From Pseudomonadota bacterium (lineage in GTDB: Bacteria > Pseudomonadota > Gammaproteobacteria > Steroidobacterales > Steroidobacteraceae), in assembly GCA_018241505.1 (NCBI GenBank), contig JAFEDS010000031.1:1-64000 (forward strand): DNA of 64,000 nucleotides, given 5' to 3'. The position numbers and the translations under genes are program-made. This document shows, one piece after another, positions 6,583-19,386 of this stretch. Position 1 is the stretch's first letter. The number at the start of each line of letters is the position of its first letter. Below the pieces are notes generated by a model. It ran no database searches. It was given only the letters and a program-made list of their open reading frames with translations, and was not told the origin of the DNA.

Positions 6583-7247
6583 ACATCCTGGCGTTGGACA
6601 CGGCTACCGAAAACTGCTCGGCAGCCCTATGGATCGACGGCCACGTGCTGCACCGTGAGCGCGAGGCCGAGCGTGGGCATGCCGAGCTCATCCTGAGCAT
6701 GATCGACGAGTTGCTGCGGGAGTCAGGTGCAACATTGCCCGAGCTGCAGGCAATAGCTTTCGGTCGCGGCCCGGGCTCTTTCACGGGAGTCCGGTTGGCT
6801 GCGAGCGTTACACAAGGACTCGCGTTTGGGGCAGGAGTTCCCGTTGTACCCGTTTCGGATCTGCGGGCGGTCGCGCAGCAAATAGAGTCTTCGCAGAATG
6901 TACTGGTCTGTAACGACGCACGGATGCAGGAAGTCTACTGGGGCTGTTTCACCCGCGGCGCGGATGGCCTGATGCTCCCCGTAACAGATGAGCGTGTCAG
7001 TAAACCGTCTGAGGTCCGCGTGCCTCCCGAATGGGTCAACACACCAGTGACTGGAGTCGGTCGCGGCTTCGCAGCGTATCCCGTGCTGGCCGATCCGTTG
7101 GCTCACATCGAGCCGGGTCTCCTTCCGCGAGCGCATGAAGTCGCCGTGCTGGCGGTCCCGGAGGTCCAGGCGGGGCGCGTCAAAGCGGCCGCGGAGGCAG
7201 TCCCGGTCTACATCCGGGACGATGTCGCGCGACCCAAACGACCGTAA
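6579..7247 (+). CDS. tsaB: tRNA threonylcarbamoyladenosine biosynthesis protein TsaB
   Basis: Partner of TsaD in making the universal t6A modification at A37 of ANN-decoding tRNAs. The ASKHA-fold N-terminus ILALDTATENCSAAL is at residues 3-17. The FGRGPGSFTGVRLAAS motif at about 62-77 is diagnostic. Length 222 residues is normal. The start is a TTG whose last two bases begin the yoaA stop (TTGA overlap), so the two genes are probably translationally coupled. Confidence 0.95.
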   Translation: MNILALDTATENCSAALWIDGHVLHREREAERGHAELILSMIDELLRESGATLPELQAIAFGRGPGSFTGVRLAASVTQGLAFGAGVPVVPVSDLRAVAQQIESSQNVLVCNDARMQEVYWGCFTRGADGLMLPVTDERVSKPSEVRVPPEWVNTPVTGVGRGFAAYPVLADPLAHIEPGLLPRAHEVAVLAVPEVQAGRVKAAAEAVPVYIRDDVARPKRP

Positions 7248-7299
7248 GCTGCACGGGTTGAATCAATTTTTTTGCGCGCTAGATCAATGACTAGACTCT

Positions 7300-7317
7300 T
7301 TGTCATGAATCTGCAAC
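7300..7317 (+). promoter_or_regulatory. PhoB box upstream of phoB
   Basis: Half-sites TTGTCAT (7300-7306) and CTGCAAC (7311-7317) are separated by four bases, the 11-bp spacing of the PhoB consensus. The site lies 42 bp before the phoB start. It implies that phoBR is autoregulated, as in other proteobacteria. Confidence 0.65.
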
Positions 7318-7358
7318 ATGACGCATCTGTAATACGCGCGCGCCACATTCAGTAACAC

Positions 7359-8054
7359 ATGCCCGCAAAACAGGTTCTGATAGTCGAGGATGAGCGCCCG
7401 ATCCGCGAGATGATCGCCTTCGGGTTGAAGCGTGCCGGCTTTGAGGTCCGGGAAGCTGAAGATTGCCGTGCCGCCCGGGCGGCGCTGGCAGACCAGCGGC
7501 CCGATCTCGTGCTCATTGATTGGATGCTCCCCGATATGAGCGGGCTCGAGCTCACGCGTGCTTTGAAGCGCGATCGCGAGACTCGTGAGCTGCCTGTCAT
7601 CATGCTGACCGCGCGCGCCGAAGAGGGCGACAAGGTCGCCGGCCTGGAGGGTGGGGCGGATGACTATGTCACCAAGCCTTTCTCGCCCCGTGAGCTGCTC
7701 GCCCGTATCAACGCCGTGCTGCGCCGAGCAACCGGGAACGGCGCTGACGAAATGATCGAGTTCGAAGGCCTGGCACTCGACCAGGCCAGCCACCGCGTCA
7801 TGGTGGCCGATCGGACGGTGCCGTTGGGACCGACCGAATACCGCATGCTCGAGTTCTTTATGACTCACCCCGAGCGTGTCTACACTCGCGATCAGCTTCT
7901 GGATCGTATCTGGGGCGGCAACGTCTATGTCGAAGAACGCACAATCGACGTGCACATTCGACGTCTGCGCAAGGCCCTCGAGGAATTCGGGTACGATCGG
8001 TTTGTACAGACGGTTCGGGGATCCGGATACCGCTTCTCGGCGAGAACCGTCTAA
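7359..8054 (+). CDS. phoB: Phosphate regulon response regulator PhoB
   Basis: OmpR/PhoB-type regulator of 231 residues. The receiver domain is residues 3-120, with the phosphorylation site Asp54 in [11 protein letters not shown] and the conserved lysine in [11 protein letters not shown]. The winged-helix DNA-binding domain is about 130-229 and ends in RGSGYRFS. Immediately upstream is a PhoB box, and 23 bp downstream is the histidine kinase phoR. The pair is surrounded by pst, phoU and PhoB-boxed genes, so the assignment as PhoB rather than another OmpR-family member is secure. Confidence 0.96.
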
Positions 8055-8077
8055 GACCGCGGAACAACGCAGGATTC

Positions 8078-9400
8078 ATGCAGCCAGCGACACAGGCTTG
8101 GTGGTTCGCAGTGGGCCGGCTTCTGGCCACGGCCCTCGTGGGCTTCGTGCTCGGCTGGCTGTTCGGCAATGTCTGGATTGGCCTGGGGGTGGCGCTGGCC
8201 CTGCACCTCGGCTGGCAACTCATCAACCTGTTTCGCCTGGAATGGTGGCTGCGACATCGCAGCTTCGCCGATCCGCCCGATGTCGGCGGTGTGTTCGGCG
8301 AAATCATTGCGCAGATTGTGCGGCTGCATCGGCGCAAGCGTTTCCACAAACAGCGCTTCGTCCAGCTCATGCGTCAGTTGCAACGCTCGACGGCGGCGCT
8401 GCCCAACGGCGTCGTCATATTGAATGCGCAACGGGAGATCATCTGGTTCAACCGGATGGCCGCGCGACTACTGGACCTGCGCCGCACCGCCGACCTGGGG
8501 CTGCGGATAGAGAATCTACTGCGTTCGCCGCAGTTTGCGCGCTACCTGGAAATCGGTGATTTCGCGAGCCCCATTGTCATTCGCACCACCCGGGGCGATG
8601 ACCAGTACCTGTCATTGCAGATGGTCCCATATGGTGAAGGGCAGCAGTTGCTGCTCGTCAGTGATGTCTCGCGCCAGATGCGCCTCGAAGCCATGCGCAA
8701 GGACTTCGTCGCCAACGCCTCGCACGAGCTGCGCTCGCCATTGACTGTCATTTCCGGGTACCTCGAGACGTTGAGTCAGGATCCCGCTCTCGATCGCGAT
8801 CTGCAGGGGCCGGTGACCGAGATGCGCCGCCAGGCCGAACGCATGACCGCAATCATCCGCGACCTGCTCGAGCTGTCGCGTCTCGAAGAGACCGACGAAA
8901 TGTTGGGCGGGGAGCCGATCGACATTGCGCCGTTATTGTCCATGTTGCGTAAAGACGTAGTTGCACGGCCCGTGCACCCACGGGATATCAAGATTCGTAT
9001 CGACAGCGACGCCCAACTTCTGGGTGACCAACCGGAGATCCATTCGGCGTTTTCCAACCTCGTCGACAATGCCGCGAAGTACACGTCGGCGGAAGGCTCA
9101 ATTGAGATGCGCTGGTGGGTGGACGACGAAGGCGCGCATTTCTCTGTTGCAGATACGGGTATGGGTATTCCGCCGGAGCACATTCCACGGCTGACAGAGC
9201 GTTTTTACAGGGTGGATGCCGGCCGCTCCCGCTCCACCGGCGGCTCAGGCCTCGGTCTGGCTATCGTGAAGCACGTTCTGCAACGCCACGGCGCCGAGTT
9301 GGAAGTGCAAAGCACCCTCGGCAGCGGTTCGCGCTTCATTTGCCATTTTCCACTGAGCCGGGTGCAGCTTGCCCGGGAATCGCGCAGCGAAGCGGTTTAA
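8078..9400 (+). CDS. phoR: Phosphate regulon sensor histidine kinase PhoR
   Basis: Inner-membrane kinase of 440 residues. Two hydrophobic N-terminal segments (about 8-30 and 32-50) form a hairpin with almost no periplasmic part, as in PhoR that senses through the Pst transporter. A basic stretch and a PAS domain (about 100-200) follow. The H-box ASHELRSPLTVISG carries His216. The ATPase domain shows the N-box DNAAKYT, G1 DTGMGIPPEH and G2 GSGLGLAIVKH. It phosphorylates PhoB under phosphate limitation and is kept off by Pst and PhoU. A weak hairpin with a T-rich tail (9410-9439) follows the gene. Confidence 0.96.
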   Translation: MQPATQAWWFAVGRLLATALVGFVLGWLFGNVWIGLGVALALHLGWQLINLFRLEWWLRHRSFADPPDVGGVFGEIIAQIVRLHRRKRFHKQRFVQLMRQLQRSTAALPNGVVILNAQREIIWFNRMAARLLDLRRTADLGLRIENLLRSPQFARYLEIGDFASPIVIRTTRGDDQYLSLQMVPYGEGQQLLLVSDVSRQMRLEAMRKDFVANASHELRSPLTVISGYLETLSQDPALDRDLQGPVTEMRRQAERMTAIIRDLLELSRLEETDEMLGGEPIDIAPLLSMLRKDVVARPVHPRDIKIRIDSDAQLLGDQPEIHSAFSNLVDNAAKYTSAEGSIEMRWWVDDEGAHFSVADTGMGIPPEHIPRLTERFYRVDAGRSRSTGGSGLGLAIVKHVLQRHGAELEVQSTLGSGSRFICHFPLSRVQLARESRSEAV

Positions 9401-9457
9401 GTTTTCCCCGCAACTCCATGTTGCACTTGCTTTATTTTTAAGAAATTGTTCGCCCGG

Positions 9458-9475
9458 CTGTCATCTGGACGACAC
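9458..9475 (+). promoter_or_regulatory. PhoB box upstream of the plcP-like operon
   Basis: CTGTCAT (9458-9464), four bases, then ACGACAC (9469-9475). The first half-site is a perfect match to the consensus CTGTCAT/C. The second keeps the 3' CAC and the spacing. It lies 23 bp before the phosphoesterase start. That is close, so the promoter geometry would be tight, or the true start is slightly downstream. Confidence 0.6.
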
Positions 9476-9497
9476 ACCGTTCTAAGACTCTGGGCGC

Positions 9498-10304
9498 ATG
9501 ACGAGCGGCCACGCCAAGCGATCTGTCAAAGTCCGCACCCTTTTTCTCTCCGATATCCATCTCGGCTACAAGCGTGCCCGCGCCCGGGAGCTGTCGGAGT
9601 TCCTGGCTGGCATTGATGCGGAGCGGATTGTCCTGGTCGGCGACATCATTGACGCCTTGAGCATGGGACAGCGCTTTTTCTGGAGCGCCGAGCACACGGA
9701 TGTCGTGCGTGCTTTGCTGGCAAAACGCCGCTCGGGTGCCCGGGTCATCTACATACCGGGCAATCACGATGCCAGCCTGGCCATGTTTGCCGAATTCCTC
9801 AGCGGCCAGTTTGAAGTGCATCGGGAGTGGGTCCATCGCACGACCCTGGGTCAGCGGCTGCTCGTGTGCCATGGCGACCGCTTCGACGGGATCGTTACTT
9901 GCGCCCCCTGGCTGGAAAAGCTGGGTGACGCGCTGTACTACATGGTGGTCGCCGCGAACCACTCTGTTAACAACGTGCGCCGGCGGTTGGGCAAGCCGTA
10001 CCTGCCGTTCGTAGAGCGCATCAAGCTCGGCATTGGCCCGAGCGTCCGGTACATTGAGAGATATGAGGAAGCGGCAACGAGGCACGCGCGAGCGGAAGGC
10101 TACGACGGAATCGTCTGCGGCCACATACACCGTGCCAACCTGCGGCAAATCGATGGTACTGTCTACTGCAATACTGGGGACTGGGTCGAATCCTGCTCAG
10201 CACTGATAGAAACACTGGACGGCGAGCTGCAGTTGCTGCGGTGGCCAAATGGTCGGCATCCGGCGCGCCGAACGACGACGCGCCTGGTGGCGGATGCCGC
10301 TTGA
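9498..10304 (+). CDS. PlcP-like metallophosphoesterase (annotated family: UDP-2,3-diacylglucosamine diphosphatase)
   Basis: Calcineurin-like phosphoesterase, 268 residues, no signal peptide. Metal-binding motifs in order: SDIHLG (Asp19, His21), VGDIID (Asp49), PGNHD, HGDRFD and GHIH near 215. The GDWVESC ending of the core is typical of the branch often annotated as LpxH-like. Members of that branch linked to a GT4 gene and a PhoB box are PlcP, which removes the phospho-head group of phospholipids to leave diacylglycerol (shown in Sinorhizobium and marine bacteria). Here the gene follows phoR, has its own PhoB box, overlaps the glycosyltransferase gene by four bases and is followed by phoU. 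I therefore infer a lipid-remodelling role. A genuine LpxH function in lipid A synthesis cannot be excluded from sequence alone, and I saw no other lpxH in the window. Confidence 0.8.
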   Translation: MTSGHAKRSVKVRTLFLSDIHLGYKRARARELSEFLAGIDAERIVLVGDIIDALSMGQRFFWSAEHTDVVRALLAKRRSGARVIYIPGNHDASLAMFAEFLSGQFEVHREWVHRTTLGQRLLVCHGDRFDGIVTCAPWLEKLGDALYYMVVAANHSVNNVRRRLGKPYLPFVERIKLGIGPSVRYIERYEEAATRHARAEGYDGIVCGHIHRANLRQIDGTVYCNTGDWVESCSALIETLDGELQLLRWPNGRHPARRTTTRLVADAA

Positions 10305-11401
10305 GAGTCTGTATCGCAACGGACGCGTGGGAGCCGCAAACCAACGGCGTCGTCACCACCCTCAAGGCTACGATCGCCCAGCTCGGTGTTATGGGCCACG
10401 AAGTGCGGGTCATTTCGCCCAACGGCATGGCGAGTATCCCCGCGCCCAGCTACCCGGAAATCCGCTTGGCGATTTTCCCGGGCTTTCACATCGCACGCGC
10501 GATCGAGTCGTTCCGCCCCCATGCGATCCACATCGCAACCGAGGGCCCGATCGGCGTCGCGATGCGCCGCTATTGCCGCCGGCACAAGTTGCCTTTCACC
10601 ACGGCATATCACACACGCTATCCCGAATATCTCAACGCACGGTGGCCGATTCCTTTGGGCGTCAGCTACGCCTGGTTGCGAAGGTTTCACGGTGCCGCGG
10701 CTCGAACCTTCGTCAGCAGCAACAGCCTGAGCGAGCAGTTGTCGGCCATGCGGTTCGAGCACCTGCATCGCTGGCAGCGTGGTGTGAACCTGGAGTTGTT
10801 TCGGCCGGTGGCGGGACCCTTGCCCGCGGAGCTGGCAGGGGTACCGCGGCCCATCATGGCCTACATGGGCCGGGTGGCCGTGGAGAAGAACATCGAGGCT
10901 TTCCTGCGGCTGCAGGTGTCCGGCACCAAGTTGGTCATTGGCAATGGCCCGGCGCGCGAGGCTCTGAGCAAGAGCCACCCCGATGCGCTGTTCATTGGCT
11001 ATCGCTTTGGCGATGAGTTGGCAGCCATGCTGAGCGCGGCCGATGTATTCGTCTTTCCGAGCCTCACGGATACCTTCGGGCTGGCAATGATCGAAGCGTT
11101 GGCCTGCGGCGTACCGGTGGCCGCATTCCCGGTTCCAGGGCCCATCGACGTCATCGAGCCAGGTGTGACTGGCGTCCTGAATGACGATCTGGCGGCTGCT
11201 ATACAGGGAGCCTTGGGGCTCAACCGACAGGTGTGCGCCGAGCGTGCCAAGGCATTTACGTGGGAGGCGGCCACCGAGCAGTTTCTCGACGGACTCGCAC
11301 CCATCCCGGCTACTGCACGCGCCGCGCTGTCCGGTTCCGGTTCGGCTATGATCGCGAGCAATGGCGCTCGCAGTCAGCCCCGCGCCGGAGATGCCAACTA
11401 A
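10301..11401 (+). CDS. GT4-family glycosyltransferase (Agt-like, probable glycolipid synthase)
   Basis: Retaining GT-B glycosyltransferase. The N-terminal Rossmann half begins RVCIATDAWEPQTNGVVTTL. The C-terminal half has the nucleotide-sugar motif PSLTDTFGLAMIEALACGVPVAAFP (E-x7-E type) at about 265-290 of this start. I chose TTG 10301 because it overlaps the upstream stop as TTGA and places the usual N-terminus at residue 2. ATG 10241 would overlap the phosphoesterase by 64 bases. Coupled to a PlcP-like gene, the best guess is transfer of a hexose or uronic acid to diacylglycerol during phosphate starvation. The sugar donor cannot be read from sequence. Its stop overlaps the phoU start (TAATG). 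Confidence 0.82.
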   Translation: MRVCIATDAWEPQTNGVVTTLKATIAQLGVMGHEVRVISPNGMASIPAPSYPEIRLAIFPGFHIARAIESFRPHAIHIATEGPIGVAMRRYCRRHKLPFTTAYHTRYPEYLNARWPIPLGVSYAWLRRFHGAAARTFVSSNSLSEQLSAMRFEHLHRWQRGVNLELFRPVAGPLPAELAGVPRPIMAYMGRVAVEKNIEAFLRLQVSGTKLVIGNGPAREALSKSHPDALFIGYRFGDELAAMLSAADVFVFPSLTDTFGLAMIEALACGVPVAAFPVPGPIDVIEPGVTGVLNDDLAAAIQGALGLNRQVCAERAKAFTWEAATEQFLDGLAPIPATARAALSGSGSAMIASNGARSQPRAGDAN

Positions 11402-12147
11402 TGGAAACAGCGGATCTCAGTCACCACATCTCACGCCGCTTCAACGAAGATCTCGAGCGGGTGCGCAGCAAAGTGCTGGGCATGGGTGGTTTTGTGGAGC
11501 AACAGCTCCACAAGGCAGTGACCGCGCTGGTCGAAGGCGATAGCACCCTGGGCGAATCGGTCGCGATGGACGACTACCAGGTCAACAACATGGAAGTCTC
11601 CATTGACGAAGAGTGCAGCCGCATTCTCGCGACCCGTGCCCCCGCGGCGGGCGACCTCCGGGTCATTGTCGCCATCATCAAGACCATCACCGATCTCGAG
11701 CGAATTGGCGACGAGGGTGAAAAGATCGGCTACATCGCTTCGCGTCTGGCGACGATGGAGCGTCCCGCGGACAAGTATCGCGAGATCAAGCATCTCGGTC
11801 GCGTCGTGTCGGAGATGGTCCACGATGCGTTGGATGCGTTCGCGCGAATGGACGTTGAGTCAGCTCTGCGAGTGGCCCGTCAAGACCGGCTGGTAGATGA
11901 AGAATACGAGTCGATCCAGCGTCAGGGCATTACATTCATGATGGAAGATCCCCGCACCATCCGCCGGATGCTGGATGTCATGTGGGTGGTTCGCGCATTG
12001 GAACGCATTGGCGACCACGCTAAGAACATCAGCGAATACGTTATCTATATGGTCCACGGAAAGGACATCCGTCACACGTCTCTGGACGATGTGGAGCGCG
12101 AACTGCGGAACGGGCGTGCCGCGGACGGCGCGACCGCAACTTCCTGA
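11401..12147 (+). CDS. phoU: Phosphate transport regulator PhoU (first copy)
   Basis: All-helical protein of 248 residues with two three-helix bundles and the metal-binding motifs of PhoU: DLERIGDEGEKIGY (about 99-112) and ALERIGDHAKNISEY (about 198-212). It links Pst to PhoR and keeps PhoR in its phosphatase state when phosphate is plentiful. It starts one base inside the glycosyltransferase stop, so it belongs to the plcP-GT4 operon rather than to pst. A second, shorter phoU closes the pst operon at 18739. Confidence 0.95.
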   Translation: METADLSHHISRRFNEDLERVRSKVLGMGGFVEQQLHKAVTALVEGDSTLGESVAMDDYQVNNMEVSIDEECSRILATRAPAAGDLRVIVAIIKTITDLERIGDEGEKIGYIASRLATMERPADKYREIKHLGRVVSEMVHDALDAFARMDVESALRVARQDRLVDEEYESIQRQGITFMMEDPRTIRRMLDVMWVVRALERIGDHAKNISEYVIYMVHGKDIRHTSLDDVERELRNGRAADGATATS

Positions 12148-12182
12148 TGCCATAAGGGCTTCCGTCGAGTACGATCGCGTTC

Positions 12183-12701
12183 GTGTCGACCAATCGCCGC
12201 CTCCTGAATTTCGCCGGCTTCATAGCCTGCGTTGCGCTTCTAGGCTATGCCTACTACACGCAATATGTCCTCGGCCTCGAGCCGTGTCCCTTGTGCATTT
12301 TTCAGCGTATCGGTGTTGCCGCGACCGGGGTGCTGTTCCTGATCGCAGGACTGCACAATCCGCGAGGGTGGGGTGCCCGGACCTACGCGGTGTTGATTGG
12401 TGTAGCTGCCCTCACCACCGCAGGCGTCGCTATTCGGCATCTCTACGTTCAGAGCCTGCCGCCCGGAACGATTCCGGCGTGCGGTGCGCCGCTCGATGTA
12501 CTGCTGCAGTTCACGCCCGTAACGGAGGTCATCCGCAAGGTCTTGACCGGCAGCGGCGAATGCAGCCAGGTCAACTGGAAGTTTCTCGGCCTCGCCATGC
12601 CCGCGTGGGTGCTGATTTGCGCCCTGGGCCTCGGCGCGCTGGGTGTGGTCACCAACACCCGGATCGGCCGGGCTAAGCCAGCAGGTTTCGCAATACGTTG
12701 A
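12183..12701 (+). CDS. dsbB: Disulfide bond formation protein DsbB
   Basis: Four-helix inner-membrane quinone reductase that reoxidises DsbA. The first periplasmic loop has the redox pair CPLC ([13 protein letters not shown], residues about 33-45). The second loop has two further cysteines (PACGAP and SGECSQ). Four hydrophobic segments match DsbB, and 172 residues is normal. The start is GTG, 35 bp after phoU. The 3' end overlaps the convergent dapE gene by 29 bp. Confidence 0.93.
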
Positions 12702-13800
12702 CGTAGATCTGGTGGAGCTTGTCGATTTCCTCCACCCGGACGCACTCGTTCACCTTGTGAATGGTCGCATTCACCACCCCGAGCTCCACCACCTGCGCGC
12801 CCAGCGGCGCAATGAACCGCCCGTCGGAAGTGCCGCCCCCGGTCGAAATCTTCGGGCGCGAACCGGTCACTTCATGGACCGCAGCTCCCACAGCCTCCGA
12901 TAACGCCCCCGGCGCCGTGTAGAAAGGCTCGCCTGACACGTACCAGTCGATGGTGAATCGGACGCCGTGCTTCCTCAGGATGCCCTCAACTGTCTCCTTG
13001 AGGCGCTCCTGTGTCTGTATGGGCGAGTAGCGCAGATTGAAGCGGGCCTTCAGCTCACCGGGAATCACATTGGGCGCACCGGTGCCGGCATTGAAGTTGG
13101 AGATCTGAAAGCTGGTCGGCTGGAAGTGTTCCGTGCCTTCGTCCCATACGCGGCTCGTCAATTCGGCCAACGCGGGTGCAAAGGTATGCACGGGATTTTC
13201 AGCCAGGTGAGGGTAGGCCACGTGACCCTGCACACCGTGCACGGTGAGGCGACCGCTGAACGATCCGCGGCGACCGACCTTGATGGTGTCGCCAATCGCG
13301 GTCTCGCTCGAGGGCTCGCCAACAATGCAGTAGTCGATGCGTTCCTTCCGAGCGGCGAGGGTTTCGACTACACGCTTCGTGCCATCGACCGAGGGGCCTT
13401 CCTCATCGCTCGTGATCAAAAACGCAATGGTGCCTTTGTGATTCGGGTGGGCAGCTACGAACGCTTCGCAGGCCGTGACCATGGCCGCGAGGCCACTCTT
13501 CATGTCGGCGGCACCACGTCCATACAGCACGCCATCCTTGATGCTGGGAACGAACGGGTCGGTGCGCCATTCTTCCAGGGGACCCGTGGGGACGACGTCG
13601 GTATGGCCCGCAAAACAGAATACCGGGCCGCCGGACCCACGCCGGGCCCAGAAGTTCTCGACCGTGCCATACCGCAGAGTCTCAATCTGAAATCCGGCCG
13701 CGGCCAGGCGGGCGGTCATCACTGCCTGGCATCCCTCATCGGCGGGTGTCACCGAGGCGCGTGCCATCAGATCTTTAGTGAGCTCGAGGGTTTGCGACAT
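12673..13800 (-). CDS. dapE: Succinyl-diaminopimelate desuccinylase DapE
   Basis: M20-family di-zinc hydrolase giving LL-diaminopimelate and succinate in lysine and peptidoglycan synthesis. Motifs: GHTDVVPTG (His ligand) at about 68-76, [11 protein letters not shown] (bridging Asp) at about 97-107, and [11 protein letters not shown] (catalytic Glu) at about 132-142. GGTSDGRFI with the C-terminal histidine region follows. Start ATG 13800 gives 375 residues, the standard length, and [11 protein letters not shown] is the normal N-terminus. An in-frame ATG at 13926 would add 42 residues that look like leader sequence. dapD and dapC of the same pathway are at 36.7-38.8 kb. Confidence 0.95.
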
Positions 13801-13916
13801 GGGTGCAGGCGTGTCCTGGTGCACTGGGAGCGGGGAATCCGTGGGCCCGCGTTTATACGGCGGCCACCGCCCCACAGCAAGCCGTTTATTCCGGCGGATG
13901 AAAGGTTGAGGAAGGC

Positions 13917-13945
13917 CTGTCATCAAATCGTCACATTCCGGTCAT
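13917..13945 (+). promoter_or_regulatory. PhoB box upstream of pstS (three half-sites)
   Basis: CTGTCAT (13917-13923), TCGTCAC (13928-13934) and CGGTCAT (13939-13945), each 11 bp after the previous one. This is the clearest PhoB site in the window. It lies 89 bp before the pstS start, a normal distance for a class of promoter in which PhoB replaces the -35 element. It falls just upstream of dapE, outside its coding region. Confidence 0.85.
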
Positions 13946-14033
13946 GTAATGCGCTCCTGCGATGCGAGATGCTCGCCGGCGGCTGCCTGCCGCGCGGCAG
14001 CCTGCGGAAAATTTCTAAATGAGGAGGCGATCG

Positions 14034-15074
14034 ATGAATTTATTCAGCGTGCGACGAGTGCTCGTGGCGGCGGCAACGCTGTCGCTGGCCGTGACCGCGC
14101 AGGCGGCCGATATCTCGGGTGCCGGCGCAACGTTCCCCTATCCTGTGTACTCCAAGTGGGCGGATGCCTATAAGACGCAGACCGGTGTCGGATTGAACTA
14201 TCAGTCCATCGGCTCGGGCGGCGGCATCAAGCAGATCAAGGCAAAGACGGTGACCTTCGGCGCCACCGACAAGCCTCTGGAGCCGAAGGAGCTGCAGGAG
14301 GCGGGCCTGGTGCAATTCCCGATGATCATTGGCGGCGTGGTGCCGGTGGTCAATATCAAAGGCATCAAGGGTGGCGCGCTGACACTCGATGGCGCCACAG
14401 TGGCGAGCATCTACCTGGGCGAGATCACCAAGTGGAATGACCCGAAGATCAAGAAGCTGAACCCGAAGCTGGCTCTGCCGGCCACCGACATTGCCCCGGT
14501 GTATCGCTCGGACGGCTCGGGAACCAACTTCCTGTTCACGGACTACCTGTCGAAGTCCAGCCCGAAGTTCAAGGAGTCGATCGGTGCCAACGCCTCCGTG
14601 CAGTGGCCCACGGGCATCGGCGCCAAGGGCAACGAGGGCGTGGCCAACATGACCACCCAGACTGACGGTGCCATCGGCTATGTTGAGTATGCCTTTGCGA
14701 AGCAGAACAGCATGGCGTATGCCCTGTTGGTCAACAAGGGCGGCAAGGCCGTCTCGCCCAGCGCCGAGAGCTTCCAGGCTGCCGCCTCGAACGCCGACTG
14801 GGCGCACGCGCCCGGCTATTACCTGATCCTGACGGACCAGGCGGGGGCTGCGAGCTGGCCCATCACCGGCGCAAGCTTCATCCTCGTCTATGGCAATCCG
14901 CCCAAGCCCGCCGAAACGGCCGAAGCGCTCAAGTTCTTCGATTGGGCCTACCAAAAGGGTGCGAAAATGGCGGCCGACCTGGACTACGTACCGCTGCCGG
15001 AAGGCCTGATCAAGCAGGTACGCGCGACCTGGAAGTCGGACATCAAGGGTATACCGGCCATTGCGGCCAAGTAG
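14034..15074 (+). CDS. pstS: Phosphate ABC transporter substrate-binding protein PstS
   Basis: Periplasmic phosphate-binding protein, 346 residues. The signal peptide is about residues 1-25 (VLVAAATLSLAVTAQAA). The mature protein begins ADISGAGATFPYPVYSKWAD, whose AGATFP and later YRSDGSGTNFLFTDYL supply phosphate ligands. The start is ATG 14034 because AGGAGG sits at 14022-14027. That AGGAGG would lie inside the gene if ATG 14019 were used. First gene of pstSCAB1B2-phoU2, under the PhoB box at 13917. Confidence 0.97.
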   Translation: MNLFSVRRVLVAAATLSLAVTAQAADISGAGATFPYPVYSKWADAYKTQTGVGLNYQSIGSGGGIKQIKAKTVTFGATDKPLEPKELQEAGLVQFPMIIGGVVPVVNIKGIKGGALTLDGATVASIYLGEITKWNDPKIKKLNPKLALPATDIAPVYRSDGSGTNFLFTDYLSKSSPKFKESIGANASVQWPTGIGAKGNEGVANMTTQTDGAIGYVEYAFAKQNSMAYALLVNKGGKAVSPSAESFQAAASNADWAHAPGYYLILTDQAGAASWPITGASFILVYGNPPKPAETAEALKFFDWAYQKGAKMAADLDYVPLPEGLIKQVRATWKSDIKGIPAIAAK

Positions 15075-15093
15075 ACTCACTGGCAAACAGCCG

Positions 15094-15154
15094 GCCCCGC
15101 GCAATCGTGCCCGGGGCGTTCATAGCGGCGGCTGTCCCACGGGGGACGGCCGCC
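15094..15154 (+). promoter_or_regulatory. Two stem-loops between pstS and pstC
   Basis: Hairpin 1 pairs GCCCCG (15094-15099) with CGGGGC (15112-15117). Hairpin 2 pairs 15127-15138 with 15143-15154, twelve base pairs with one G-U and a four-base loop, ending ten bases before the pstC ribosome-binding site. No T-run follows, so these are not plain terminators. The likely role is to protect the pstS mRNA end and lower permease expression relative to the binding protein. Confidence 0.6.
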
Positions 15155-15170
15155 ATTTGCGTTGGAGATC

Positions 15171-16142
15171 ATGAATACAACGGCCGCTGCATTTGATACA
15201 CGGCATGCCGCCAGGCAGCGTTTCCGGGAAAATCTGTTCAAGGGAGCCACGCTGTGCGCAGCGTTGCTCGTGCTTCTGCTGTTGGGCGGTGTGGTGCTGT
15301 CACTGTTGCACGGCTCCTGGCCCGCCTTCTCGCACTTCAAATTCGCCTTCCTGACGCGCGAGGTCTGGAATCCGGTCACCGATGAGTTTGGGGCCCTTGC
15401 GCCCGTGTACGGCACACTGGTGACTTCGCTGATTGCGATGCTCATCGCGATCCCCATCAGCTTCGGCATCGCCATGTTCCTCACCGAGCTGGCACCGGCC
15501 TGGCTGAAGCGCCCCGTGGGTGTGGCAATCGAGTTGCTCGCCGCGGTGCCCAGCATCATCTTCGGCATCTGGGGCCTGTTTGTGCTGGCGCCGGTGCTGC
15601 AGCGTCACGTGCAACCGACGCTGATTGAGTATCTCGGACCGTTGCCGATCGTCGGCAAGCTGTTTCATGGACCGCCGTTCGGTATCGGCGTGCTCACCGC
15701 ATCCATTGTGCTGGCGATCATGGTGTTGCCGTTCATCTCGGCGGTGATGCGCGACGTGTTTGAAACCGTACCGGATGTGTTGAAGGAGTCCGGCTACGGA
15801 CTCGGCGCCACCACCTGGGAAGTTGTCTGGAAAGTCGTCGTGCCGTATTCGCGCACCGGCATCGTCGGCGGCATCATGTTGGGATTGGGGCGTGCGCTGG
15901 GGGAGACGATGGCCGTTACCTTCGTGATCGGTAACGCGCATCGCATCAGTCCTTCGCTGCTCGCGCCCGGCACGACCATCTCGGCCTCGATTGCCAATGA
16001 ATTCACCGAAGCGGTGGGGGATTTGTATACCTCATCGCTCGTCGCGCTCGGTGCGCTGCTGTTCCTGATCACCTTCGTGGTGATCGCGGCCGCGCGATTC
16101 ATGCTGCTGCGCCTCGACCGGCGCGCGCTCTCATCGGTATGA
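15171..16142 (+). CDS. pstC: Phosphate ABC transporter permease PstC
   Basis: Inner-membrane permease subunit, 323 residues from ATG 15171 (GGAG at 15164). Six hydrophobic segments are visible. The phosphate-permease signature [21 protein letters not shown] is at about 122-142. The ABC coupling loop [25 protein letters not shown] (EAA-type, at about 205-229) is followed by [16 protein letters not shown]. Forms the channel with PstA. A TTG at 15162 is a poorer start. Confidence 0.96.
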
Positions 16143-16155
16143 GGAGGGCACTCGC

Positions 16156-17004
16156 GTGAAACGTCGAATGATGCGCAAAGTCACCAACGTCGTCGCCCTG
16201 TGTCTGTCGGGATTGGCTACGGCGATTGGTTTGTTCTTCCTCGGCGCCATTCTCTGGACTCTGTTCTCGAAAGGCATCGCCGGAATGTCGGTCGCGCTGT
16301 TCACCCAGAACACACCGCCGCCCGGCAGCTCCGGCGGACTCCTGAACGCAATCTACGGCAGCGTGGTCATGACGCTGATCGGCATTCTCGTCGGCGCCCC
16401 GATCGGCATGTTGGCGGGAACTTACCTGGCGGAGTACGGCCGCGGCTCGCGCCTGAGCGCGGTGATCCGCTTCGTCAACGATGTGTTGTTGAGCGCGCCG
16501 TCGATCATCATCGGCCTGTTCATCTACGAATTGCTCGTCATCCGGATGGGGCACTTCTCGGCGCTCGCCGGCGGTGTTGCATTGGCGGTGATTGCGATCC
16601 CCGTGACGGTGCGTACCACCGAGGACATGTTGAATCTCGTGCCGCAGGGAATGAAGGACGCCTCCACCGCAATGGGGGCCTATCCCTGGCGAACCATCAC
16701 GAGCATCATCTACCCGGCAGCCCGCAGCGGTATTGTCACGGGTCTGTTGCTTGCCGTCGCGCGCATCAGCGGTGAGACCGCGCCGCTGTTGTTCACGGCC
16801 CTCAACAATCAATTCTGGAGCACCAACCTGCAGGCGCCGATGGCCAACCTGCCGGTGGACATCTTCCTGTTCGCGCTCAGCCCGTACAAGAACTGGCAGT
16901 CACTGGCCTGGTCGGGTGCGCTGCTGGTGACGCTGACGATCCTGTTGCTCAGCATCTCGGCGCGGATTGCCGTGTCCGCATCGGGCGGAGGGGCCAAGCG
17001 TTGA
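16156..17004 (+). CDS. pstA: Phosphate ABC transporter permease PstA
   Basis: Second permease half, 282 residues. It starts with GTG preceded by GAGGAGG at 16141. Six membrane segments. [18 protein letters not shown] and the coupling loop [25 protein letters not shown] with [14 protein letters not shown] are the family blocks. It overlaps pstB1 by four bases (TTGA). Confidence 0.96.
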
Positions 17005-17798
17005 ACGCCGTAGCGGCCGAGAAGGGTGTCGCGGCAAGTGCCCGTCCGCCCAAGTTTGAAGTCAAACATCTCGATTTCTATTACGGGCCGAATCGAGCCC
17101 TGAAGGACATCAATCTCACGCTCGCCGATCGCAGCATCACGGCCTTCATCGGCCCGTCCGGCTGCGGCAAGTCGACCCTGCTTCGCGTATTTAACCGAAT
17201 GTACGCGCTATATCCGGGGCATCGGGCGACGGGCGACGTGCTGCTCGATGGCGAAAACATCCTGGCAGCCACTGTTGATCTGTCCAGCCTGCGTTTCCGC
17301 GTGGGGATGGTTTTCCAGAAGGCCACCCCGTTTCCCATGTCGATTTTCGACAATGTGGCCTTCGGGCTGCGCCTGGCGCGCCGGATCCCGCGATCCGAGC
17401 TCGTGGGCCGCGTTGAGGTCGCCCTTCGGGATGCGGCAATGTGGGATGAAGTGAAGGACAAGCTGAACGAGGATGGCCGGGGTCTCTCGGGAGGTCAGCA
17501 GCAGCGATTGTGCATAGCGCGTACAATCGCGCTCGAACCTGAGGTCGTGCTTCTCGATGAGCCGACCGCAGCATTGGACCCCATATCCACACTTCGCGTC
17601 GAAGAGACTCTGCAAAGCCTCCGCGAGAAGTATTGCCTGGCCATTGTCACGCACAACCTGCAGCAGGCGGCGCGCGTGTCGAATGTCACGGCATTCATGT
17701 ACATGGGCGAGCTGGTGGAGATCGGACCGACGGAGCAGATGTTTACCTCTCCGAAGGACCGCAAGACCGATGACTATGTCACGGGAAGGTTTGGCTGA
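17001..17798 (+). CDS. pstB: Phosphate ABC transporter ATPase PstB, first copy
   Basis: ABC ATPase of 265 residues driving phosphate import. Walker [18 protein letters not shown] is at about 50-66, Q-loop [20 protein letters not shown], signature [16 protein letters not shown], Walker [15 protein letters not shown]-loop [13 protein letters not shown]. The sequence after the Q-loop diverges more from the usual PstB (KPNPFP is KATPFP) than the second copy does. TTG start in TTGA overlap with pstA. A further PstB follows directly. Confidence 0.94.
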
Positions 17799-18739
17799 TG
17801 GCGACCACCCACGAAAGTGTCCAGGAGCGAAATACGGTGAGCGCACTGACCGCGTCCGGGGATCCGAGCCGCAAGCGCCCGATTGAGGCGGGTCTCAATC
17901 TCAAACCCAGCGGCCGGGTGCCGGCACCGACTTCGCTCGAGCACAAGAGCGGCGACCGCACGGTCGGTCAATTCACTGTCGATGATGCGGTGTTCGCCTG
18001 CCGCGATGTGAATGTTTTCTACGGCAGCAAGCACGCCCTGCGCAACGTCAACATCGACGTGGCGCGCAAACAGGTGCTGGCCATGATCGGACCGTCCGGC
18101 TGCGGCAAATCAACTTTCCTGCGCTGTCTGAACCGCATGAACGATACCGTGCCGGGTGCGCGGGTGACCGGTTCCATCAAGTTGGATGGCAAGGACATCC
18201 AGGAGTCGGCGACGGACGTGGTGCAACTCCGGGCGCGTGTCGGCATGGTGTTCCAGAAGCCGAATCCGTTTCCCAAGTCGATTTATGACAACGTCGCGTA
18301 CGGGCCGCGAATTCACGGCATTACGCGCAGTCGCGCGGATCTCGATGACATCGTGTGCACGAGCTTGCAGCGCGCAGGATTGTGGGACGAGGTGAAAGAC
18401 CGCCTCAGCAAGCCGGGGACGGGTCTGTCGGGCGGTCAGCAGCAGCGCCTGTGTATTGCCCGGGCGATCGCCATTCAGCCTGAAGTGATCTTGATGGACG
18501 AGCCTTGCTCGGCGCTGGATCCCATCGCCACGGCGCGCGTGGAGGATCTGATCGAAGTGCTGCGCGAGAGCTATGCGATCGTCATTGTCACGCATTCGAT
18601 GCAACAGGCGGCGCGCGTTTCGCAGCGCACGGCGTATTTCCACATGGGCGAGCTGATCGAGGTCGGTGAAACCGATCGCGTGTTCACCAATCCGCGTCAT
18701 CGGCTCACTGAAGATTACATTACGGGTCGATTTGGCTGA
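17798..18739 (+). CDS. pstB: Phosphate ABC transporter ATPase PstB, second copy
   Basis: Second PstB, 313 residues, starting on the last base of the first copy's stop (TGATG). About 60 extra N-terminal residues precede the ABC core and are not obviously structured. The core is canonical: [93 protein letters not shown]. Both copies keep all ATP-site residues. A PstB1-PstB2 heterodimer or condition-specific use are both possible. Confidence 0.94.
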
Positions 18740-19386
18740 TGCTCGAAGGCCATATCAGCCGGGCATTCGACGGCGCATTGGCGGCGCTTCACATTCGCGT
18801 AGTGGAAATGGGCGGCCTGGTGCTCGACCAGGTGCGCGAGGCGGCGGCGGCTTACACTGAATGGCTGGTGGCGCCCGCCCAGCACGTGTTGGAACGCGAA
18901 ACGGAAGTCAACGACTACAACACCCGTCTCAATGAAGAGCAGCTCACCCTGATTGCCCGGCGTCAACCGGTGGCGGGGGACCTGCGGGCCACCATTGCTA
19001 TGGCCAGTGTGGTGGCCGAGCTCGAGCGCGCCGGCGATGAGGCGAAAAAGATCGCCCGCACAGTCATTGCCCAAGGCAGCAGGCCGGGCCCCGCAACCTC
19101 ACGTGACGTCCGGCACCTCGGCAATCTCGCCGTAAGATTGCTGCGTACCGCGCTCGAATCGTTTGATCGCCTGGACCCGTCTCTGGCTGCCGAAGTCATC
19201 GCACAGGACAAGGAGCTGGACGAGGAATACGCTGCGGGTTTGCGTCGTTTGATGACACGCGCAATGGAGGACCCACGCCAGGTGACAGTGGCCCTCGAAG
19301 CTGCGTTTGCGCTGAAGTCGCTGGAGCGAATCGGCGACCACGCGCGCAATCTCGCGCGCCGCGTTCTCGCCATCGGCGGAGAATAG
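18739..19386 (+). CDS. phoU: PhoU family protein (second copy)
   Basis: Shorter PhoU of 215 residues with both metal-site motifs in altered form: ELERAGDEAKKIART (about 94-108) and SLERIGDHARNLARR (about 194-208). It starts on the last base of the pstB2 stop (TGATG) and is the last gene of the pst operon. Compared with the copy at 11401 it lacks about 30 residues, mainly at the ends. It probably tunes PhoR signalling or Pst activity together with or instead of the first copy. Confidence 0.93.
   Translation: MLEGHISRAFDGALAALHIRVVEMGGLVLDQVREAAAAYTEWLVAPAQHVLERETEVNDYNTRLNEEQLTLIARRQPVAGDLRATIAMASVVAELERAGDEAKKIARTVIAQGSRPGPATSRDVRHLGNLAVRLLRTALESFDRLDPSLAAEVIAQDKELDEEYAAGLRRLMTRAMEDPRQVTVALEAAFALKSLERIGDHARNLARRVLAIGGE

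Follow-up and report, generated by a model that had tools for sequence, protein, structure and literature searches.

A predicted PhoB-controlled plcP-agt-phoU array with a conserved element upstream of phoU in an uncultured Steroidobacteraceae-like genus

The gene array described here lies in a 64,000-nucleotide (nt) window (bases 1-64000 of contig C24, from a genome of 7.88 Mb) and comprises phoB-phoR, a Pho box, a plcP-like phosphoesterase gene, an agt-like gene for a glycosyltransferase of family GT4, and phoU, all on the plus strand (Table 1). A sequence-only reading had placed a PhoB box and the phosphoesterase, GT4 and phoU genes directly after phoBR, and its coordinates and overlaps were found to be correct: the GT4 start overlaps the phosphoesterase stop by 4 nt (TTGA), and one base is common to the GT4 stop and the phoU start (TAATG). 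The five genes of the array were named by family scans, with PhoU above the cut-off of one curated model (Table 1) and under that of a second (298.9 versus 342 bits). Other gene names were read from translations, giving the local order dinG-tsaB-phoB-phoR-plcP-GT4-phoU-dsbB-(dapE, opposite strand)-pstS-pstC-pstA-pstB1-pstB2-phoU2.

The phosphoesterase and the glycosyltransferase of the array

The phosphoesterase was compared with LpxH, an enzyme of lipid A synthesis. If it were LpxH, its position beside phoBR would be incidental. The two enzymes belong to the same superfamily, the phosphoesterase matches two LpxH models weakly, and its homologues were labelled UDP-2,3-diacylglucosamine diphosphatase (the LpxH name) in 24 of 32 plasmid records. 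The model matches, however, were far under the cut-offs (34.3 bits against 134, and 26.4 bits against 190), and a genuine LpxH was found elsewhere in the genome (C1:76412-77092, 283 bits) as the sole match above the LpxH cut-off. An LpxH above the cut-off was present in 14 of 15 genomes searched. The best local alignment of the operon phosphoesterase with the genome's true LpxH covered 42 columns only. In a tree of 87 rows, the phosphoesterase was placed with Pseudomonas aeruginosa PlcP and a Sinorhizobium meliloti homologue, with all 14 LpxH rows across a long branch (support 100). At the sequence level these results rule out LpxH, an identity that we regard as extremely improbable. They support the assignment as PlcP that had been made from the sequence alone, and the usual automatic name of these proteins thus misleads.

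The reference rows of this tree need some definition. The P. aeruginosa row comes from a plasmid-borne copy of the region, identified through azoR3 upstream and the glycosyltransferase and cyaB downstream; from these neighbours we take it to be equivalent to PA3219-PA3218. The S. meliloti row is a PlcP homologue from one record and may not be the experimentally tested gene. Stretches of PlcP shorter than 150 amino acids (aa; loci L076 and L233) were excluded. Two of the records are unusual in themselves: L125 (CP075839.1) is a P. aeruginosa plasmid carrying the plcP-agt1 region with apparent chromosomal neighbours, and L124 (CP090106.1) is a 3.7-Mb S. meliloti record titled pSymB, and from this length the names of chromosome and plasmid may be swapped. 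Across 17 aligned sequences, residues D19, H21, D49, N89, H90, H125, H209, and H211 were invariant, and presumably these are metal or catalytic residues. The operon PlcPs formed a single clade (24 rows, support 100), and the window's genome contained a single PlcP at an expect value (E) of 0.01. A sequence search of solved structures returned two matches at E up to 1 (best 0.32) and nothing useful.

The partner protein was matched by Pfam GT4 families and was 50% identical, over 340 columns of local alignment, to the glycosyltransferase adjoining P. aeruginosa PlcP; the row of that glycosyltransferase is on a long branch of the GT4 tree. Together with the conserved pairing, this identity supports the assignment of the protein as Agt. 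A search of the window's genome at E 1e-40 gave one Agt-like GT4. The 20 operon GT4s formed a clade of their own (20 rows, support 99) and were 358 to 367 aa long (median 366), compared with 331 to 371 aa for 38 others (group medians 335 to 351); the surplus residues constitute a C-terminal tail that in most cases ends at the phoU start. Locus L076, where GT4 matched in two pieces, was excluded from the GT4 tree and from the codon counts given below. In this assembly (G014; L076/L039) the two pieces overlap and the gene is probably frameshifted.

Table 1. Coordinates of the array and its neighbouring features in the window
Feature	Position	Strand	Remarks
Weak Pho-box-like site upstream of phoB	7300..7317	+	3 mismatches to motif
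phoB, response regulator	7359..8054	+	TIGR02154, 349 bits (cut-off 296)
phoR, sensor kinase	8078..9400	+	TIGR02966, 399 bits (cut-off 334)
Pho box, CTGTCATCTGGACGACAC	9458..9475	+	13/14 to motif of relatives' gaps; reached by 1 of 2000 shuffles
Possible -10 of Pho promoter, GACTCT	9486..9491	+	Conserved stretch past box; weakly resembles TATAAT
plcP-like phosphoesterase	9498..10304	+	268 aa; GDWVESC motif
agt-like GT4	10301..11401	+	366 aa; TTG start; C-terminal extension reaching phoU
-10-like element, TTCGGCTATGATC	11341..11353	+	TATGAT at 11347-11352, within GT4 3' end; 54 nt upstream of phoU
phoU	11401..12147	+	248 aa; ATG start; TIGR02135, 235.9 bits (cut-off 130.25)
Pho-box-like site upstream of pstS	13917..13934	+	2 mismatches to motif
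pstS-pstC-pstA-pstB1-pstB2	14019..18739	+	pstB twice in tandem (pstB pair and second phoU at 17001-19386); names from translations
Second phoU	18739..19386	+	Directly after pstB2, overlapping it; 36% identical to first PhoU (residues 6-216)

Pho box and recurrence of the array in relatives

The box at 9458 is the window's only match to the motif CTGTCAYNNNNCYGACAY with a single mismatch. Matches with up to three mismatches numbered 26 in the 64 kb against 30 expected, and by number alone those with two or three mismatches, which include the pstS and phoB sites, are not significant. Against the published consensus CTGTCATNNNNCTGTCAT the window box scored 10/14, i.e., four mismatches, and a search of the window for that consensus with at most three mismatches did not return it. 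In the phoR-plcP gaps of relatives, a box of at least 12/14 was detected in 17 of 20, and in each case no more than 6 of 2000 single-base shuffles of the gap attained the score. The box began 44 to 45 nt past the phoR stop in 12 of these 20 gaps and 57 nt past it in the window. As the motif form was derived from the same gaps, there is some circularity in the box scores, though not in the recurring position. Ten nucleotides separate the box from the possible -10, and GACCCT is found at that place in 10 of the 20 plcP gaps (counted by eye). The conserved box supports the predicted Pho control of plcP-agt-phoU, which had also been proposed in the sequence-only reading.

Recurrence of the array was examined in (i) 58 genomes of the genus, searched with PhoU (51 matched at E 1e-30); and (ii) 217 genomes of the family, searched with PlcP (140 matched at E 1e-20). 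Operon-type PlcP, defined by at least 63% identity, was detected in 22 genus genomes; 8 others had a PlcP of 41-44% identity, leaving 28 without a match by subtraction from 58. In all 22 genomes the operon-type PlcP is within the array, either beside phoR, beside GT4-phoU, or both (in L071 and L076 the contig starts too far downstream for phoR to be seen), and GT4 is also present in 20 of the 22, such that the plcP-GT4-phoU order does recur in related genomes. All 20 genus loci that have both genes show a plcP-GT4 overlap of exactly 4 nt. The 1-nt GT4-phoU overlap is found in 17 of 21 loci; of the other four, three have GT4 and phoU separated by 3, 3, and 20 nt, and in one GT4 is broken.

Gain and loss of the genes were followed on a flanking-gene tree built by a short search from the 53 loci that have phoR as well as phoU. 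Four loci devoid of plcP and GT4 (L072, L073, L077, and L098) were nested among array-bearing loci, and three of them (L072, L073, and L077) were sister to the array-bearing L084 (support 99). L077 retains a Pho box (13/14) and, judged by eye, a stretch before phoU resembling a GT4 3' end, which has the look of a deletion scar. Some relatives have lost one or both of the genes. The eight genus members with the less similar PlcP carry it elsewhere in the genome, most with an Agt-like gene adjoining (loci L033-L037, L240, and L244 in G002, G007, G031, G017, G010, G079, and G068; G080 was identified by PlcP search only). Those of these proteins that were included in trees were placed near Burkholderiales or other betaproteobacterial rows, a pattern suggestive of replacement by transfer. 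The two PlcP types were not found together in any of the 30 PlcP-bearing genus genomes, each giving one match.

Elsewhere in the family, three other genera (g295, g301, and g302) have phoR-plcP-phoU without GT4 (L230-L232; the partial L233 of g301 agrees on plcP-phoU), G591 has plcP after phoB-phoR-phoU-dsbB, and G097 has it after phoR near a contig end. The PlcP and GT4 of G555, also of this family, are nearly identical to proteins of Peristeroidobacter agariperforans, and the family is therefore probably Steroidobacteraceae. One named genome of the genus carries the isolate name palsa_1213. The second PhoU, encoded after the pst genes in the window, was seen in 4 of the 58 genus genomes at E 1e-30 (G000, G005, G034, and G077).

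Several of these observations weigh against a PlcP-Agt operon of fixed composition and known substrate. The box is poor in 3 of the 20 phoR-plcP gaps (11/14, reached by 43 to 63 of 2000 shuffles). L078 and L089 have plcP without GT4, L093 has GT4 without plcP, G075 gave no Agt-like match at E 1e-40, and G035 gave no PlcP at E 1e-20; the pair is therefore not always kept together. The stem of the operon PlcP clade is long (0.68 changes per column) and the proteins deviate at positions that other PlcPs conserve, so that the substrate may have shifted. These last two features, together with the three genera in which plcP stands between phoR and phoU without agt, would be expected if the PlcP- and Agt-like enzymes acted on another lipid or a glycan, in some different reaction that saves phosphate or serves the envelope, with a changed substrate for the operon PlcP; among these genera, the genome G532 (88% complete) gave no Agt-like match at E 1e-40, and the others have Agt elsewhere. 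Yet the recognised residues are kept, and the GT4 encoded alongside resembles Agt, its gene following plcP with a 4-nt overlap just as in P. aeruginosa; we consider a different reaction unlikely. The array is best described as a known pathway in a new arrangement, a well-supported putative PlcP-Agt operon with phoU.

A conserved element upstream of phoU

A conserved -10-like element, TATSAT in the context TTNNGYTATSATC, was identified upstream of phoU; it had been missed in the sequence-only reading. Of 59 loci, 55 had TATSAT no more than 110 nt upstream of phoU, and 56 had either TATSAT or TATTAT when the limit was set at 130 nt, compared with TATSAT in 117 of 5000 random 130-nt stretches. 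The three loci with neither form (L225, L226, and L243) are outside the array-bearing clade. The location of the element relative to phoU was found to vary with the preceding gene: (i) -31 to -37 in most loci with phoU directly after phoR, and near -57 in L072, L073, and L098; (ii) -13 to -108 where plcP alone precedes phoU; and (iii) -33 to -72, within the GT4 reading frame, where GT4 precedes phoU (-54 in the window). In these counts L094, whose contig starts inside GT4 and whose match is under the score limit, was placed among the loci without GT4.

Codon usage at the element was examined within the GT4 genes. A codon test on a gapped protein alignment gave no invariant-T wobble column, the tail being unaligned, and the counts were then anchored on TATSAT. 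The GYT codon at the element (14 Ala, 6 Val) has a wobble T in 20 of 20 intact GT4 genes, as does the codon two before it, against a background of wobble T in 10.7% of 6346 codons and 5.9% of 1416 Ala/Val codons. The wobble T persists even where the GYT codon differs at its second base, which is not accounted for by selection on the protein. The sequence-only reading had assigned phoU to one transcript with plcP and agt. This is plausible from the overlaps but incomplete, as the embedded element suggests a promoter of phoU's own: a conserved -10-like sequence belonging to phoU sits in the GT4 coding end, and for this reason such a promoter is probable. We therefore suggest that phoU probably has both the Pho promoter and an embedded one, the simplest reading being that the GT4 gene has extended across the promoter of phoU.

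Plain co-transcription, in which phoU would depend wholly on the Pho promoter, is consistent with the conserved Pho box and with the 1-nt agt overlap at 17 of 21 loci. It leaves unexplained why the wobble T is retained at the embedded element in all 20 genes; moreover, relatives without agt keep the element directly before phoU, and of 28 gaps between phoR and an immediately following phoU, just 2 have a box of at least 12/14. We judge exclusive dependence on the Pho promoter to be quite unlikely.

The promoter assignment itself meets a number of counterarguments. No recognisable -35, for which a spacing of 16-18 nt would be expected, was found at the embedded element, and a sigma-70 scan of 7200-14100 returned 0 promoters against 1.9 expected. 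The 20 GT4 sequences are related, and so do not amount to 20 independent trials. Genome-wide, TTNNGYTATSATC was found at 3 sites versus 2 in the control, and the core GYTATSATC at 61 sites versus 45; of 30 of these 61 sites that were classified, 5 were no more than 120 nt upstream of the start of a gene in the sense orientation, compared with 4.0% of random positions, which lends weak support. A GC-rich inverted repeat was seen by eye after TATSAT in several GT4 loci (GCGAGC...GCTCGC in the window, 11354-11371). Such a repeat, the missing -35, and an unusually long conserved core that includes TT at -6/-5 could also be accommodated if TTNNGYTATSATC were a regulator binding site or an RNA element acting on phoU rather than a promoter. 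TATSAT, however, fits the -10 hexamer at five of six positions, and its distance to phoU ranges from 13 to 108 nt, unlike that of a ribosome-binding element; we hold a non-promoter function to be a minority possibility, and a phoU promoter remains our preferred assignment.

Proposed model and comparison with known systems

Overall, the findings make it likely that plcP-agt-phoU is a PhoB-controlled membrane-remodelling operon of an uncultured genus of soil bacteria, probably within the Steroidobacteraceae, in which phoU also has an element of its own. In the model that we infer for enzyme activity, lipid product, and transcription from the two sites, phosphorylated PhoB (PhoB~P) would bind the box at 9458 during phosphate starvation and induce both plcP and agt. 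PlcP would release diacylglycerol and a phospho-head group from glycerophospholipids, and the Agt-like GT4 would attach a sugar to the diacylglycerol, yielding a glycolipid that lacks phosphorus. PhoU, which acts as the brake on PhoR, would be translated next in the same array, so that brake and enzymes rise together, and the -10-like sequence in the agt 3' end may provide basal PhoU when the Pho promoter is off. A more specific proposal, put forward tentatively and with less than even confidence, is a two-promoter brake device in which the tail of the glycosyltransferase gene has overprinted a constitutive promoter of phoU; PhoU would then never fall below a floor level, and its amount would scale with that of the enzymes freeing phosphate from the membrane when the Pho promoter fires. 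If this is true, PhoU dosed with PlcP would shut PhoR down once membrane phosphate had recovered. The array would thus (i) join a signal brake (PhoU) and its output (membrane phosphate salvage) in one set of genes; (ii) support, at the level of sequence, glycolipid remodelling by a Steroidobacteraceae-like genus; and (iii) represent a case in which a coding sequence has seemingly grown over a neighbour's regulatory element that is still conserved.

The joining of phoU to plcP was rare in wider scans. In the best 80 of 569 plcP loci from named genomes, with up to 5 kb of flank, a phoU match (tblastn 1e-8, with PhoU or PhoU2 of the window) was found in three, L127-L129, apparently of the same genus. 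Across the class, PlcP was detected at E 1e-40 in 103 of 369 genomes; phoU was sought in 80 of the 102 other PlcP genomes and found in 76, in none of which it adjoins plcP (coordinates by eye). The closest cases were another gammaproteobacterial family, f58, with phoU 3.3-3.6 kb after agt, and G186 and G165, with phoU about 4 kb and 5.7 kb upstream. The sequence-only reading knew of no description of phoU joined to plcP-agt, and none was found in the consulted passages of those papers of the searched library that treat PlcP together with phoU. In Phaeobacter, PhoU (beside PstB) and PlcP have locus tags that are far apart, and in a Pseudomonas both PlcP and PhoU are reported to be PhoBR-dependent (PMC5082522).

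The closest likeness is to known plcP-agt pairs. In P. aeruginosa, plcP-agt1 (PA3219-PA3218) has the same gene order and 4-nt overlap, with PlcP 43% and Agt 50% identical to those of the window in local alignments and a Pho box upstream (PMC8528852); PA3218 made monogalactosyldiacylglycerol (MGDG) in Escherichia coli (PMC8528852). It differs from the window in that the pair is followed by cyaB, not phoU, and that no phoBR is present in the stretch seen (the plasmid copy); the main text of PMC8528852 does not mention phoU. Marine plcP genes occur in context types 1-6, of which type 2 has agt downstream of plcP, and Pho boxes are predicted in the clusters (PMC4796936); in contrast to the window's array, phoU is not mentioned in the main text of that paper. 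In methanotrophs, including USC-gamma metagenome-assembled genomes, plcP is directly followed by agt as in the window, and glycolipid loss was shown in a Methylosinus trichosporium OB3b mutant (PMC9239053), the main text of which likewise has no phoU. In f58 (L225, L226, and L227), phoB-phoR is directly followed by plcP-agt, as in the window, but phoU lies 3.3 and 3.6 kb after agt (L225 and L226; L227 ends before any phoU) and the PlcP falls outside the operon PlcP clade. These f58 clusters also have a second GT4 on the other strand, and L226 has a porin-like open reading frame before phoU. The embedded phoU element, finally, would as a promoter resemble the alternative internal promoters of the E. 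coli pst operon (cited in PMC12096839); those promoters are inside the pst operon, whereas the element of the window is inside a lipid glycosyltransferase gene.

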